The translations under genes were made by a program, and so were the position numbers. DNA of 64,000 nt from the NCBI GenBank assembly GCA_016401345.1, contig JAEACG010000001.1:496001-560000 (forward strand), written 5' to 3'. Under the pieces are notes generated by a model. It was not told the DNA's origin, made no database searches, and saw only the letters and a list, made by a program, of their open reading frames with translations. Position 1 is the stretch's first letter, and each line of letters starts with the position of its first letter. Below, piece by piece: positions 26,433 to 53,607 of this stretch. Source of the DNA: Fictibacillus nanhaiensis (GTDB taxonomy: Bacteria > Bacillota > Bacilli > Bacillales > Fictibacillaceae).

Positions 26433-26467
26433 AAAAAAAGAAGACCTCTTGAGGTCTTCTTTTTTTC
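26433..26467. terminator. Bidirectional terminator shared by speA and the SR1-like RNA
   Basis: AAGACCTC and GAGGTCTT form a stem with seven A on the left and seven T on the right, so it works on both strands. Confidence 0.92.
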
Positions 26468-26590
26468 TTACTTATCTAAGTTCGTTTGCTCGTGGCAATG
26501 CGGGCATGTGTTTGAATATAATGTGGTCACTTTTTCCTCTTCAAAATGTTCAATTGTTGTTTCACACGTTTGGCAAATGATTACTCCCAT
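26468..26590 (-). CDS. SR1P-like GapA-binding peptide
   Basis: This 40-residue peptide begins MGVIICQTCETTIEHFEE and has two Cys pairs (CQTC at 6-9 and CPHC at 29-32), forming a small zinc-ribbon shape. It resembles the SR1P family, in which the peptide binds the glycolytic GAPDH GapA and promotes its interaction with RNase J1. The ATG at 26590 follows AAGGGAG. Its promoter, cre site and terminator match the known SR1 layout. The identification rests on remembered family sequence and on context. Confidence 0.85.
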   Translation of the reverse strand: MGVIICQTCETTIEHFEEEKVTTLYSNTCPHCHEQTNLDK

Positions 26591-26613
26591 CCGTTCCATC
26601 TCCCTTCACATTT

Positions 26614-26627
26614 TGAAAGCGCTTACG
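26614..26627 (-). promoter_or_regulatory. cre-like CcpA site downstream of the SR1-like promoter
   Basis: TGAAAGCGCTTACG on the plus strand differs from the cre consensus TGWNANCGNTNWCA only at the last base. It lies a few bases inside the transcript, where CcpA would act as a roadblock or repressor. Confidence 0.75.
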
Positions 26628-26638
26628 TTTGTAATCTT

Positions 26639-49511: not shown

Positions 49512-50258
49512 TTAATGTTCATAGATCATTTTTCTAGTCATCCCGCCATCGATCGTAATATTTTCCCCGGTAATAAAATTATTGTCAGACTGCGCTAAGA
49601 ATAAGCATGCCCTTGAAATATCAGCTGGCATACCCACTCTTTTTGAGAGATGCTGATCGTGATCAACTTCACGCAGCTCTTTATAATCTCCTGTATGTAT
49701 CCAACCAGGACTAATAGAATTCACGGTAATAAAATCTTCAGAGAACGATGCAGCCAAGGCGTGAGTTAAAGCAACAATTCCGCCTTTAGTTGCCGCATAT
49801 GCTTCGGAATGAGGCTCAGACATTACCGCACGAGTGGAAGCCATATTGATGATAGAACCTCCTCCAGACTGGGACATGTACTTAGCCGCTTCTCTAGAAA
49901 AAAGAAAAACACTTCGCAAGTTCGTGTTTAAAATGTCATCCCATTCATCTACTGTTAATTCATATGGCGATTTCCATTTTGAAATACCAGCGTTGTTGAT
50001 AACACAGTTCAGACCGCCTAATCTATCATGTGTTTCTGATACTGCTTTAATAATTTCCTCTGGATTTTTTACATCGCATGTAATAAAGATGCTATCTGCT
50101 TGAATTTGACGGACTTCAGAAAATGTAGTTTCAAGCTCATTTTTATTGTAATCAATTAGCGAGACCTTCCATCCTGCTTTGGCAAAATCAATTGCTATCT
50201 GTTTTCCAATTCCCTCGGCTGCACCTGTAACCAATACTATACCTCTAGTCTTAACCAT
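49512..50258 (-). CDS. Short-chain dehydrogenase/reductase
   Basis: This 248-residue classical SDR has the cofactor loop TGAAEGIG (residues about 12-19), NNAG (89-92), the catalytic Ser-Tyr-Lys triad with YAATK, and the PG motif after it. It ends with GENITIDGG. The acidic residue after the second strand (LIDYN) favours NAD over NADP. It lies downstream of lhgO but beyond a strong terminator, so it is probably expressed separately. AGGAGG precedes the ATG. The substrate is unknown. Confidence 0.87.
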   Translation of the reverse strand: MVKTRGIVLVTGAAEGIGKQIAIDFAKAGWKVSLIDYNKNELETTFSEVRQIQADSIFITCDVKNPEEIIKAVSETHDRLGGLNCVINNAGISKWKSPYELTVDEWDDILNTNLRSVFLFSREAAKYMSQSGGGSIINMASTRAVMSEPHSEAYAATKGGIVALTHALAASFSEDFITVNSISPGWIHTGDYKELREVDHDQHLSKRVGMPADISRACLFLAQSDNNFITGENITIDGGMTRKMIYEH

Positions 50259-50394: not shown

Positions 50395-51606
50395 CTATCT
50401 TGCAGCAAAAAGTTTATACTCTAATTCAGGCACTCTTTTAGCAATTTCTCTTCCGATTGGAAAACATGCAGTAGCTGCTGGAGAAGGTGCATTACACACA
50501 TTAATACTTCGTTTACTCTGTTCAATGAAGAAATCATCGACTAATGAGCCGTCAGATCGCAAAGCTTGTGCTCTAACACCAGATGGTGAAGGTATAATAT
50601 CACTTTCTTGAATGTCTGGTACGAGCTCTTGAAGGCTCTTTACAAAGGCTTTCTTGCTTAAAGATCGCCAAATTTCTACCGTTCCTTCTTTCCAATATTT
50701 ACGTGCCATCTTCCAAAAACCTGAATATAGCATGATTTCCGTTGCATCTTTAAAGTTAATATCACGTTTTAAATAGCCTTCCCTTTTTAATCCTAAAACG
50801 GCATTTGGACCAGCCTCAACGCCACCATTTATCATTCTAGTAAAATGCACACCTAAAAAAGGAAACTCTGGATTCGGAACAGGATATATTAAATTTTTCA
50901 CTAAATACTGTTTATCTGGTTTAAGTTCGAAATACTCTCCTCTAAAAGGGATTATTTTTACATCTGGTGATAAACCCGTCATTTTAGCAAGCCGATCACT
51001 GTGAAGTCCGCCACAGTTCACAATATATTTAGCAGTGAAATCCTTTTGATTTGTGACAATATCTACTTGCTCGCTTTTTTCAATAATCTTTTTTACTTCA
51101 GTATTTAAAAGCAGTTCAACTCCATGCTTTTCTAAAATGGAAACAAGAGTCAAACATACCTGTTTATAGTCTACAATGCCAGCTGAAGGCACCTTAACTG
51201 CCTGTATCCCATGAACAAATGGTTCCTCTTCTTTTATTTGTTCTGGACCAATCATTGATAGCTCAAGCTCGTTTGCAATGCCTCTTTGATACAAATTTTT
51301 AATATGCGGCAATTCATCTTGTTTCGTTGCCACTATAACTTTGCCGCATTGTTCATAGTTCACATTGTACTTTTGACAAAAGTCTATCATTTCTTTATTT
51401 CCTTCTTTTGCAAACTTAGCTTTTAAACTTCCTGGTTTATAGTAAATGCCTGAGTGGATTACACCGCTGTTATTTCCTGTCTGATGTTTTGACCATGAAT
51501 CTTCCTTTTCTAATACGCTAAGACGAGCGTGTGGAAATCTCTTGCTTAATGAGTACGCAGTGGATAATCCAACAATTCCTCCCCCGATAATTACGATATC
51601 TTCCAT
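50395..51606 (-). CDS. lhgO: L-2-hydroxyglutarate dehydrogenase/oxidase LhgO
   Basis: This 403-residue FAD enzyme of the DAO superfamily has the dinucleotide fold IIGGGIVGLSTAYSLSKRF at the start and the LhgO-type NSGVIHSGIYYKPGSLKA. It oxidises L-2-hydroxyglutarate to 2-oxoglutarate and passes electrons to the quinone pool or oxygen. Its partner csiD lies 27 bases upstream. Together they convert glutarate to 2-oxoglutarate with net regeneration of the CsiD cosubstrate. In E. coli the equivalent (YgaF) is membrane-associated. A terminator follows. Confidence 0.9.
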   Translation of the reverse strand: MEDIVIIGGGIVGLSTAYSLSKRFPHARLSVLEKEDSWSKHQTGNNSGVIHSGIYYKPGSLKAKFAKEGNKEMIDFCQKYNVNYEQCGKVIVATKQDELPHIKNLYQRGIANELELSMIGPEQIKEEEPFVHGIQAVKVPSAGIVDYKQVCLTLVSILEKHGVELLLNTEVKKIIEKSEQVDIVTNQKDFTAKYIVNCGGLHSDRLAKMTGLSPDVKIIPFRGEYFELKPDKQYLVKNLIYPVPNPEFPFLGVHFTRMINGGVEAGPNAVLGLKREGYLKRDINFKDATEIMLYSGFWKMARKYWKEGTVEIWRSLSKKAFVKSLQELVPDIQESDIIPSPSGVRAQALRSDGSLVDDFFIEQSKRSINVCNAPSPAATACFPIGREIAKRVPELEYKLFAAR

Positions 51607-51633: not shown

Positions 51634-52569
51634 TTACACTCTAGCAAAATAACCTCTTTGTCTTAATAATTCACGATGAAGCTCAGGATTCTTTGCGAAT
51701 GCAGCTCTGCCATGCAGCCAGAAAGTATTGTTCACCATAACAAGGTCTCCAACAGGGAGAGGGAGGTCGATGGTGTACTTGCTGTTCTCCATAGACTCAG
51801 AAAGATTTTTTAAGTAAACGGCTTGATCCATCGTTGTTGGATGAGCAAATTGGTCAATAAAACAGATACATGGTTTGCCGTTATGTTCAAAAAATGTTTC
51901 ATTATAAACATTTTTTGCAACATTTTTACTAGCCGGTGCCTTATATTCAATACGACAAGTTGCTAATGGGTGGCGGGAAAAGTGGTCTAATTCTTCCCAA
52001 TCATCTAAATGTAAAACCCGAGACTCTCCACCTTTCGCATTTTCTTCCGCAAACTTCATCATTAGAAGCCAATCTGTAGGTTCATCTACGAACGTTCCAT
52101 CTGTATGAAGAGTAAAACGTCGATATGCTTGCCTTAAGTAGGAATCACTTTCGTCTGTATCTTTAACTGTAAATCTAGCGTAGTAGGTTCCTGACATCGC
52201 ATCAAAGTTTACCCCTCCGATCAAGTGAGATAAAGCAGTTGAAAATTTAATATACTCATCATAATTTTGAGTTAACCCTTGCATTCCGACTGTAAAACCA
52301 CCTGTATTCCGATCGTGTAATATGGAACGAACGGTATCAGAAAATGAACTACCTAAGTGTCTTTCCAATGATTGCGATAATACGAGTCTCATATAAGGAA
52401 CGTACTCTAATTGTTGTGCATTCACTAGTTGATTTTCAGTCAAAAATGCTAATAATGAATCTTTTTCAATGACTAGATGATATAGTCGTTGATGATTCGG
52501 ATGACTATTCACCTTAAAAGTACCGTATGTTCCTACAAATGTTTTCTCATTTTCTTTAGTTACGCTCAT
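51634..52569 (-). CDS. csiD: Glutarate 2-hydroxylase CsiD/GlaH
   Basis: This 311-residue Fe(II)/2-oxoglutarate dioxygenase has the metal triad His155, Asp157 (LHTDGTF) and His286 (LHGRAAF), with an Arg near the C-terminus for the 2-oxoglutarate carboxylate. It turns glutarate, 2-oxoglutarate and O2 into L-2-hydroxyglutarate, succinate and CO2. It starts behind AAAAAGGAGGAAG. Between that site and the upstream promoter lies a structured leader with a terminator (52592-52757), so expression needs antitermination. In E. coli csiD is a stationary-phase gene of lysine and glutarate breakdown. Confidence 0.92.
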   Translation of the reverse strand: MSVTKENEKTFVGTYGTFKVNSHPNHQRLYHLVIEKDSLLAFLTENQLVNAQQLEYVPYMRLVLSQSLERHLGSSFSDTVRSILHDRNTGGFTVGMQGLTQNYDEYIKFSTALSHLIGGVNFDAMSGTYYARFTVKDTDESDSYLRQAYRRFTLHTDGTFVDEPTDWLLMMKFAEENAKGGESRVLHLDDWEELDHFSRHPLATCRIEYKAPASKNVAKNVYNETFFEHNGKPCICFIDQFAHPTTMDQAVYLKNLSESMENSKYTIDLPLPVGDLVMVNNTFWLHGRAAFAKNPELHRELLRQRGYFARV

Positions 52570-52591
52570 TTTTCTTCCTCCTTTTTTTCCA

Positions 52592-52639
52592 CAAAAATAG
52601 CCAGTTGTACCATTTCATTAGGAAATGATAAAACTGGCT
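52592..52639 (-). terminator. Attenuator terminator in the csiD leader
   Basis: On the minus strand AGCCAGTT (52639-52632) pairs with AACTGGCT (52606-52599), CATTTC pairs with GAAATG inside, and TATTTTTGT follows. The csiD ribosome binding site begins about ten bases later, leaving no room for another promoter. Confidence 0.88.
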
Positions 52640-52757
52640 TGTAGTCTACTTTTGGCTTTTGGTAAAAGTCCGATAGACTTAACAGTTATTATTAATTATA
52701 AGTTGCATACTAACTATTACTAGCCGTGGTAGGGGACACCAACCTACGGGTAATATT
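52592..52757 (-). ncRNA. Candidate riboswitch or attenuator leader of csiD-lhgO
   Basis: The leader of about 165 nt has two hairpins before the terminator. Hairpin A (52754-52716) has ATTAC/GTAAT, CCGT/ACGG and GGT/ACC stems around a TGGTGTCCCCT loop. Hairpin B (52679-52643) has AGTCTA/TAGACT and CTTTT/AAAAG stems, a TCGGA bulge and an ACCAAAAGCC loop. TTGGT of loop A is complementary to ACCAA of loop B, allowing a kissing contact. TAATAGTTA could instead pair with TAACTGTTA and open stem A. No known riboswitch class was recognised. Confidence 0.65.
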
Positions 52758-52763
52758 TATATC

Positions 52764-52792
52764 ATTTTAAATCAGTTTTTATCTTGTGTCAA
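52764..52792 (-). promoter_or_regulatory. Sigma-A promoter of the csiD leader
   Basis: On the minus strand TTGACA is followed after exactly 17 bases by TAAAAT. It gives csiD-lhgO transcription independent of the upstream sigma-54 operon. Confidence 0.82.
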
Positions 52793-52828
52793 TAAATAAA
52801 TTGAATAATCAGAAATTTAACAAGTCCA

Positions 52829-53155
52829 TCAGATCTCTGTTTTTGCTCTTATTGCACTATATTGTTTATAGGCATCTTTTACCGCCGTTATTAATGCCGT
52901 TTTTGCCTTTCCGTGATAATTTCTTTCAATCGTATTCACAATGGGATCACACCCATCCATGAGACTAAACCCTTTTAATAAACTACTAAAAAAATTTTGA
53001 GCATGTTGCGTTGATAAAGTACATGAAGCATTTAGAATCACCCAGTATTGATGATCCGTTTCAATAGTAACTGTTAATGTTTGATGAATTTCACTCGCCG
53101 ACATACCTTGAGGAAGCTTCGCATGACCTGCAATCATTCTAGTTCGTTCCAACAT
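52829..53155 (-). CDS. DUF3870-like protein, last gene of the acyl-CoA operon
   Basis: This 108-residue small alpha/beta protein has MIAGHAKLPQGMSASEIHQTLTVTIETD followed by ILNASCTLSTQHAQNFFSSLLKGF. The single Cys in NASCTLST and the FSLMDG segment fit the DUF3870 family as I recall it; no function is established. AGGAGG precedes the ATG at 53155. It closes the nine-gene acyl-CoA operon, so a role in CoA-ester catabolism or in its control is a fair guess only. Confidence 0.65.
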   Translation of the reverse strand: MLERTRMIAGHAKLPQGMSASEIHQTLTVTIETDHQYWVILNASCTLSTQHAQNFFSSLLKGFSLMDGCDPIVNTIERNYHGKAKTALITAVKDAYKQYSAIRAKTEI

Positions 53156-53205
53156 CACCACCTCCTAGATTTGAAGTGTTATCTTTCATCCTCATGCAAC
53201 TATTC

Positions 53206-53607
53206 CTACACATGAATCAACTTAAAAGTCCCTGTTCCTTTTGAAACAACATTTCCGTACTCATCTTTAATTACCCCATCCACAAAAGCGGTCTTATGAC
53301 CTTTAGAAATAATATGAGCCTCTGCATATATGTAGCCTGTTTTGACTGGTGCTGTAAAATGAACGGTTAAACTCATCGTCACACACCTCGTCTTTGTAAC
53401 AGAGCGAAGATGCATACTTTGAACGAAGTCAATGATGGAGGCATATACACCCCCATGAAGGGTACCATTCGTATTCAACAATTCATTCTTTATATTTAAT
53501 TTTATCCTCACATTTTCTTCTTCAAAAGATACGATCTCTATACCTAAGTGGTGAAGGTATGGACAATGCGCAAATTCTTTGTGGATTTCATCGATTGTTA
53601 ATGGCAT
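53206..53607 (-). CDS. PaaI-type hotdog thioesterase
   Basis: This 133-residue hotdog-fold protein of the PaaI/YiiD thioesterase kind has the motif LNTNGTLHGGVYASIIDF (residues about 43-60), where HGG and the following acidic residue form the usual active site. It probably hydrolyses a small or aromatic acyl-CoA. It lies between the DUF3870-like gene and the enoyl-CoA hydratase gene in the operon. A second hotdog gene is at 55596-56003. Cytoplasmic. Confidence 0.83.
   Translation of the reverse strand: MPLTIDEIHKEFAHCPYLHHLGIEIVSFEEENVRIKLNIKNELLNTNGTLHGGVYASIIDFVQSMHLRSVTKTRCVTMSLTVHFTAPVKTGYIYAEAHIISKGHKTAFVDGVIKDEYGNVVSKGTGTFKLIHV

Follow-up and report, generated by a model that had tools for sequence, protein, structure and literature searches.

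We analysed a 64,000-nucleotide stretch of the Fictibacillus nanhaiensis genome (the window). The locus described here lies on its minus strand and comprises csiD and lhgO, the leader in front of them and a DUF3870 gene. The features are summarized in Table 1. The csiD product scored 438 bits with the glutarate dioxygenase GlaH equivalog model (NF002814; cut-off 333), and its nearest solved structures were glutarate 2-hydroxylases (PDB match, 1.3e-79). Elsewhere in the window, the SR1 small RNA was detected (RF02376, 62.3 bits; 26433-26637, minus strand).

Table 1 Features of the csiD locus in the window and selected RNA copies at other loci.
Feature	Position	Strand	Evidence or remark
SDR oxidoreductase	49512..50258	-	possible third operon gene, judged by strand and spacing
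lhgO (L-2-hydroxyglutarate oxidase)	50395..51606	-	NF008726, 583 bits, cut-off 299
csiD (glutarate 2-hydroxylase)	51634..52569	-	PF08943, 417 bits
csiD Shine-Dalgarno AAGGAGGAAG	52574..52583	-	sequence
Intrinsic terminator (AGCCAGUU...AACUGGCU, then A-UUUUU)	52593..52639	-	fold and relatives
P4 3' strand CAGU	52633..52636	-	also part of terminator 5' arm
Conserved RNA, both domains	52633..52758	-	covariance-model match, 87.7 bits
Domain 2, P3 hairpin (P3a GUCUAU/GUAGAC, asymmetric internal loop, P3b)	52644..52678	-	covariation in A5
P4 5' strand ACUG (putative antiterminator)	52683..52686	-	pairs with CAGU
Domain 1, P1a/P1b and hairpin P2 (52744-52728), loop ending CC	52716..52757	-	covariation in A1 and A5
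Sigma-A promoter	52764..52792	-	-35 TTGACA 52792-52787, -10 TAAAAT 52769-52764; 11/12 consensus matches
DUF3870 gene	52829..53161	-	PF12986, 95.3 bits; directly upstream of leader, same strand
RNA leader, Priestia megaterium	L020:5804-5923
RNA before small MCK... ORF	L128:10654-10787
RNA before small MCK... ORF	L131:805-931
RNA before small MCK... ORF	L132:2421-2548
RNA before small MCK... ORF	L133:6052-6179
RNA before small MCK... ORF	L135:7300-7427
RNA before small MCK... ORF	L138:728-853
RNA before small MCK... ORF	L139:6753-6885

TTGACA-17-TAAAAT was the only minus-strand promoter-like site listed between 52000 and 53400, a region in which such sites were fewer (3) than in shuffled sequences (mean 5.6). 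The leader of about 165 nt extends from 52757 to about 52593. The segment 52585-52757 folded at -47.7 kcal/mol (z = -4.34; none of 200 shuffles was equally stable), with hairpins at 52757-52716 and 52678-52644. The terminator hairpin spans 52639-52599 and is followed by a U-run at 52597-52593. The consensus terminator scan of 52000-53400 listed no terminator, and the call was made from the leader fold and its relatives. Only 23 nt separate the U-run from the csiD start codon at 52569, which leaves no room for a second promoter between them. The initial annotation had described this promoter, a leader of about 165 nt with two hairpins, an intrinsic terminator before the csiD ribosome binding site and a lack of space for another promoter, all of which were borne out.

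CsiD was found in 9 of 34 genomes of the family, in 50 of 397 genomes of the order and in 20 named loci. Two of 398 genomes in the phylum set carried it (G000 and G073), both already included in the earlier sets. The sequences upstream of CsiD share one leader, and the model R1 found the RNA in 59 of 70 CsiD sources. The 11 negative sources were L018, L041, L044, L083, L084 and the proteobacterial csiD loci L033-L038, in which the RNA was found in 0 of 6. L041 is cut by a contig end, leaving too little upstream sequence for its absence to be sure. L018 is a second CsiD copy in G020 that has no leader of its own; by eye, its upstream sequence resembles the end of an lhgO gene. In a search of the whole genome that contains the window, the leader was matched at E 4.8e-13, and the next matches were at E 4.11 and 8.56.

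Two alignments were used for the analysis of covariation. A1 was made with MAFFT, without fitting to a structure, from 40 leaders below 85% identity that were retained from 59 distinct leaders after dropping 19 redundant ones. Paired cells amounted to 83.6% compared to 71.0% in shuffled alignments, and the covariation score was 0.427 compared to 0.214. Change on both sides was seen in 24 of 30 pairs, and none of 500 shuffles was as high on any of five measures. Structures slid along A1 reached at most 50.4% paired cells, and RNAalifold, unaided, gave the same helices (P1, P2, P4, P3a and P3b). A5, which was fitted to the model, comprises 109 matches that come from 95 sources; 89 of the matches fall below 85% identity. 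Here, 88.3% of cells were paired compared to 71.5% after shuffling, and the score was 0.516 compared to 0.227; 27 pairs changed on both sides compared to 24.5, a value reached by 24 of 500 shuffles. A promoter score of at least 10 of 12 preceded 81 of the 109 members, and the mean best score was 10.16 versus 8.23 in shuffles. Judged from these sequence comparisons, the leader RNA is conserved with strong covariation. The initial annotation had proposed a covariation test in relatives, and its hairpins proved conserved and covarying in the 40 leaders and the 109 matches. A conserved 5' leader RNA with covarying helices, as a riboswitch would have, is therefore present.

Domain 1 comprises P1a, P1b (3 bp) and P2. 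P2 could be formed in 102 of 109 members, and in the other seven fewer than three of its six pairs were possible; therefore, domain 2 together with P4 looks like the core. The linker between domain 1 and P4 varies in length. P3 lies inside P4, which is opened by ACUG and closed by CAGU. In A5, 97.4% of the cells of P3a (6 bp) and 99.5% of those of P4 were paired, and 6 of 6 P3a pairs had changed on both sides. The sequence of P3 is highly variable, and few unpaired positions are conserved, which is unusual for an aptamer.

P4 formed in 107 of the 109 members when G-U pairs were allowed. Its strands were ACTG/CAGT in 97 members, GCTG/CAGC in five, GCTG/CAGT in four and ACTG/CGGT in one, and were broken in two. 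The GCUG/CAGC combination is compensatory: GCTG accompanied CAGC in 5 of 5 cases and was found in 4 of 104 otherwise (Fisher p = 1e-6, ignoring phylogeny). An outward extension of P4 was rejected, as the -1/+1 pair was possible in 79 of 109 members, where shuffles gave 70.0 and at most 81, and the -2/+2 pair was possible in 32, fewer than the 48.9 of the shuffles; P4 was taken as 4 bp. The terminator arm GCCAG was identical in 107 of 109 members. The five positions following it vary and paired in 523 of 545 cells in the best-scoring placement, for which there was no shuffled control. The best terminator placement in each of the 109 members, likewise without a shuffled control, had 8-12 of 12 pairs and 5-7 T in the next eight positions.

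The conserved alternative pairing predicted from the alignments is that of ACUG with CAGU. Since the 3' strand of P4 lies inside the 5' arm of the terminator, P4 and the terminator should be mutually exclusive. The initial annotation had instead proposed TAATAGTTA with TAACTGTTA as the switch. This pairing is present in the minimum-energy fold of the window leader, and it is not conserved. When transcripts were ended ahead of the terminator 3' arm, the probability that the ACUG strand pairs with anything upstream was 0.28 for the window and 0.46 for its closest relative, L010, and it exceeded 0.5 in 5 of 109 members. A suggested TTGGT/ACCAA loop-loop contact did not hold up either. Complementarity of at least 5 nt between the P2 and P3 loops was found in 4 of 109 members compared to 2.0 with shuffled partners, and TTGGT lies mostly within the P2 stem in the family alignment.

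We computed the stability of the competing folds. The terminator fold was more stable than the P4 fold in 106 of 109 members, by a median of 12.2 kcal/mol. For transcripts that end ahead of the terminator 3' arm, the probability of P4 exceeded 0.5 in 78 of 109 members and that of P3a in 101. By computation, then, the leader has an alternative helix that excludes the terminator, as expected of a riboswitch. As the terminator is energetically favoured in these folds, termination is likely to be the default, and something would have to hold P4/P3 for read-through. The greater stability of the terminator fold would also suit a constitutive attenuating terminator that has no sensor. Such an element leaves the covarying P1-P4, the compensatory change in P4 and the restriction to one pathway unexplained, and we consider it very improbable. 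Attenuation by ribosome stalling on a leader peptide would likewise account for a terminator/antiterminator arrangement in a catabolic leader. However, an ORF of at least six codons with a Shine-Dalgarno-like site was found in 3 of 109 members when the matched stretch was scanned, and what is conserved is a compact RNA with covariation; the chance that this mechanism operates appears negligible.

No family of Rfam 15 (4227 families) was found in the leader at the gathering score in a scan of the window and 36 family loci. At E up to 5, the leader gave two chance-level matches of 14.3 and 12.2 bits, compared to gathering scores of 56 and 55. The models of the lysine riboswitch (L-box) and the T-box matched neither in the window nor in the 36 family loci. 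This agrees with the earlier statement that the leader belongs to no known riboswitch class. Among the openly accessible papers listed in literature searches on riboswitches, csiD, glutarate and aminovalerate, none was found to describe such an RNA, and the accessible parts of two surveys of bacterial noncoding RNA (PMC11109978, PMC8632094) contain no such motif. The RNA class appears to be new; as to its kind, it appears to be a termination-controlling leader RNA.

The distribution of the RNA was examined with R1 in 397 genomes of the order at E 0.01, a threshold at which about four chance matches are expected. There were 77 matches in 59 genomes, with up to four per genome. At 46 of the 77 sites, CsiD followed on the same strand at a distance of 64-280 nt, and 46 of 51 CsiD loci had such a site. 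The RNA was present in 49 of 50 CsiD-carrying genomes compared to 10 of 347 others (p = 2e-51, ignoring phylogeny). The lone CsiD carrier negative with R1, G042, later yielded weaker RNA matches.

Twenty-four of the other 31 sites precede pathway genes by our own tally. Thirteen are followed by genes for a CoA-transferase and/or an acyl-CoA dehydrogenase (in G224, identified by the first codons only), three by a transaminase gene and three by a small ORF and then GntR-LhgO-DUF3870. One site each precedes genes for an aldehyde dehydrogenase, an amino acid permease, an ABC transporter (with a transaminase further down), TRAP-TAXI-CoA-transferase and Rieske-BCCT. The remaining seven sites have no recognised pathway gene behind the RNA: a small ORF is next at four of them, followed by dynA at three, an MFS transporter gene lies 524 nt on at one, and two have none. 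L136, L141, L155 and L159 showed no pathway link, and L159, which has no terminator, is an apparent false match. Among 378 genomes of the class, R1 matched 18, of which 14 were new; nine of the 28 rows repeated the order set. The 19 new rows comprised 10 sites before CsiD, five before CoA-transferase and/or dehydrogenase, one before TRAP-TAXI-CoA-transferase, one before aldehyde dehydrogenase and two with nothing recognised behind them. As would be expected of a riboswitch, the RNA thus accompanies genes of one metabolite at 70 of the 77 sites in the order and, again by our tally, at 17 of the 19 added by the class, with the caveat that some of the gene names fall below curated cut-offs. R1 undercounts: among 40 genomes initially scored as lacking the RNA, weaker matches were located immediately in front of pathway genes, and 3 of the 40 were positive with the model R2.

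R2 matched 2 of 164 phylum genomes, namely the window genome and G494, and the RNA seems rare beyond the class. The match in G494 is weak (37.6 bits) and precedes a gene for a PrpF-like isomerase, with an acyl-CoA ligase gene behind it. This RNA (L189:1501-1625, L193:15105-15136) lies outside the class, has an intact P4/P3/terminator core and has a DUF3870 gene on its other side. It could be a relative with another ligand.

We compared the enzymes of the regulon with curated models and solved structures. The CoA-transferase was named best as succinate-glutarate CoA-transferase, with 432, 456 and 472 bits for three copies, below the cut-off of 750; the runner-up models scored 310-352 bits. Its best solved relatives were succinate-hydroxymethylglutarate CoA-transferase (354 bits) and formyl-CoA transferase (353 bits). 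The dehydrogenase was named best as glutaryl-CoA dehydrogenase Acd (390-393 bits in three copies, below the cut-off of 470), in a near tie with acryloyl-CoA reductase (382-390 bits in the three copies). The solved glutaryl-CoA dehydrogenase 3mpi was its second-best structure match, at 337 bits (best 346). The transaminase passed the cut-off of the 4-aminobutyrate transaminase model, and two copies of the aldehyde dehydrogenase scored 795 and 755 bits as 2-oxoglutaric semialdehyde dehydrogenase (cut-off 770). The CoA-transferase and the acyl-CoA dehydrogenase probably form the glutaryl-CoA route, and the transaminase may act on 5-aminovalerate and the aldehyde dehydrogenase on glutarate semialdehyde. 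Because their operons and the RNA are shared with CsiD-LhgO, all RNA-controlled enzymes would act in the C5 glutarate pathway. The gene names are less firm than the argument requires.

Forty of the 73 RNA-bearing genomes had an orthologue of the dehydrogenase (at least 74% identity); in the other 33, including the window genome, none was found at E 1e-130. CsiD was present in all 31 of these 33 that belong to the order set, and in the remaining two it follows the RNA. Ten of 59 RNA-bearing order genomes had no CsiD match, and all ten had the dehydrogenase; one of the ten, G237, is only 62% complete, and draft genomes may hide genes. The RNA thus occurs in CsiD-only and in CoA-only genomes, so that L-2-hydroxyglutarate and glutaryl-CoA drop out if there is one ligand. 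As single common ligand, L-2-hydroxyglutarate is disfavoured by the RNA genomes without a CsiD match, and glutaryl-CoA by those without a dehydrogenase orthologue. If one ligand serves all sites, glutarate and its precursors would remain. Both glutarate and L-2-hydroxyglutarate had been guessed as ligands in the initial annotation; the regulon favours the former, and the genomes without a CsiD match speak against the latter.

A riboswitch of the same kind might instead sense 5-aminovalerate, GABA or another upstream signal of lysine/GABA catabolism. The RNA is found with transaminase-aldehyde dehydrogenase operons and with genes for amino acid permeases and a polyamine-type ABC transporter, and the transaminase is named as a 4-aminobutyrate enzyme. 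However, in the stretch examined, several operons show only a CoA-transferase and a dehydrogenase with no amine-handling gene, and operons of a TRAP-TAXI transporter and a CoA-transferase (L121, L165) show none either. Therefore, glutarate is favoured over 5-aminovalerate. CsiD itself also acts on glutarate, and we regard an upstream ligand as quite unlikely.

LicT-type or HutP proteins stabilise antiterminator hairpins on their leaders. P4/P3 could similarly be stabilised by a metabolite-sensing RNA-binding protein, for which DUF3870 would be the natural candidate. A DUF3870 gene was found in 72 of 73 RNA-bearing genomes compared to 15 of 40 others (p = 1e-13, ignoring phylogeny), where the 40 are those reported without an RNA match in the order and class scans rather than a random sample, and one of the DUF3870 cases is borderline. 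The three of these 40 that carry the RNA by R2 (G042, G114 and G152) all have DUF3870. The gene adjoins the RNA in the window and at many loci, and it precedes the weak G494 RNA despite the different downstream genes. In addition, P4 and P3 together make a single imperfect hairpin that overlaps the terminator. Such proteins bind hairpins of this shape, and in this P4/P3 resembles the LicT/SacY RAT and HutP leader hairpins. The RNA differs from them in that P2 is formable in most members and the sequence of P3 is unconserved, which would be unexpected of a protein-recognised hairpin. DUF3870 would be a candidate, and no antiterminator protein is known for this RNA.

DUF3870 also tracks the pathway. 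The dehydrogenase gene was nearby in 10 of 16 DUF3870 loci from the 40 genomes, and in several of these loci weaker RNA matches lay directly upstream of pathway genes. DUF3870 thus follows both the pathway and the RNA. In G1002, a weak (35.7 bits) but well-placed RNA occurs without DUF3870. A simple pattern scan found no RNA core at distant DUF3870 loci (26-36% identity; L169, L173, L176, L182 and L183) or at L181 (55%). The protein is close to neutral (net charge from -2 to 7 in 42 sequences, median +1) and gave no significant solved relative, the best profile match being NUDT16, a U8 snoRNA-decapping enzyme, at E 0.48. This small conserved protein is a candidate regulator or enzyme, and control by a protein antiterminator, although the main alternative, appears unlikely to us.

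The initial annotation had read the element as a riboswitch-like leader outside the known classes, with control over csiD-lhgO exerted at a terminator. This idea is well supported, because the comparisons revealed a conserved covarying RNA behind a promoter, a helix overlapping and excluding the terminator, no Rfam match and one metabolic regulon. We propose, with a probability of roughly 0.57, that the leader represents a new class of antitermination RNAs acting in cis, most likely riboswitches, by which the catabolism of glutarate (lysine/5-aminovalerate) is controlled. During transcription from the sigma-A promoter, domain 1 (P1/P2) would be made before domain 2 (P3). ACUG would then pair with CAGU, and P4 would close P3 before the 3' arm of the terminator is made. 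When the signal is absent, the more stable terminator would displace P4, and transcription would stop before csiD. When it is present, P4/P3 would be held and csiD-lhgO would be read, making the element an ON switch. The signal would presumably be a small molecule bound directly by the RNA, most likely glutarate, at which the controlled modules meet, with 5-aminovalerate as the second choice.

Its narrower form, that this is the first glutarate-sensing riboswitch class, is a tentative proposal that we place a little below even odds. It would be a protein-free RNA ON switch present in up to four copies per genome, coordinating 5-aminovalerate/glutarate modules across Bacilli, from Fictibacillaceae to Paenibacillaceae. 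The modules would be uptake, transamination, oxidation and the CsiD-LhgO and CoA exits. Transcription-terminating ON riboswitches are known in Bacillota. The present RNA resembles them in its location in a 5' leader, its sigma-A promoter, its structured RNA, an antiterminator that shares the 5' arm of the terminator and several copies per genome on one pathway. It differs in matching no Rfam family at the gathering score and in that no riboswitch for its putative ligand was found in the accessible part of the literature searched. The lysine riboswitch (L box) senses lysine, governs biosynthesis and transport, and works on a terminator. The present RNA is also a regulatory RNA of lysine metabolism in Bacillota that would act on a terminator, whereas it governs the glutarate end of degradation and has no Rfam match.

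Protein regulators of these genes have been described. CsiR (GntR family) is reported to repress the E. coli csiD operon, a repression that glutarate relieves (PMC6265302), and GcdR (LysR family) is reported to regulate glutarate catabolism in Proteobacteria (PMC6667623). The control of csiD or the glutaryl-CoA route is common to these systems and the present one, but CsiR and GcdR are proteins acting on DNA, whereas here a cis RNA would act on termination. Glutarate is a simple dicarboxylate, and the accessible part of the literature searched contains no riboswitch for it; should it be the ligand, an RNA would take the place of the protein CsiR. The regulon outlines a catabolic network of Bacilli and links DUF3870, the Rieske-BCCT module and a small Cys-rich peptide to it. 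The RNA could also offer a sensor part for the bioproduction of glutarate or 5-aminovalerate. Even if a protein is needed, the analysis defines a large class of regulatory RNA with a coherent regulon, undescribed in the literature searched and widespread in Bacillus-like bacteria.

At the loci listed at the end of Table 1, a very small ORF (MCK...), in most cases Cys-rich, begins behind the RNA; next comes a GntR gene, or dynA in three genomes. The ORF was identified in full in L133 (36 aa) and L139 (37 aa) and by its first codons in the others. The GntR/FCD gene lies behind 3 of the 31 order sites away from CsiD; it was assigned by Pfam in L132, and those in L133 and L139 were 82-83% identical to it. 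Another RNA copy (L117:8416-8556, minus strand) precedes genes for a Rieske oxygenase and a BCCT carnitine/betaine-type transporter (L117:5379-8119, minus strand), which are divergent from an RNA-controlled CoA-transferase operon. Speculatively, this module might take up and cleave 5-aminovalerate betaine and so feed glutarate.
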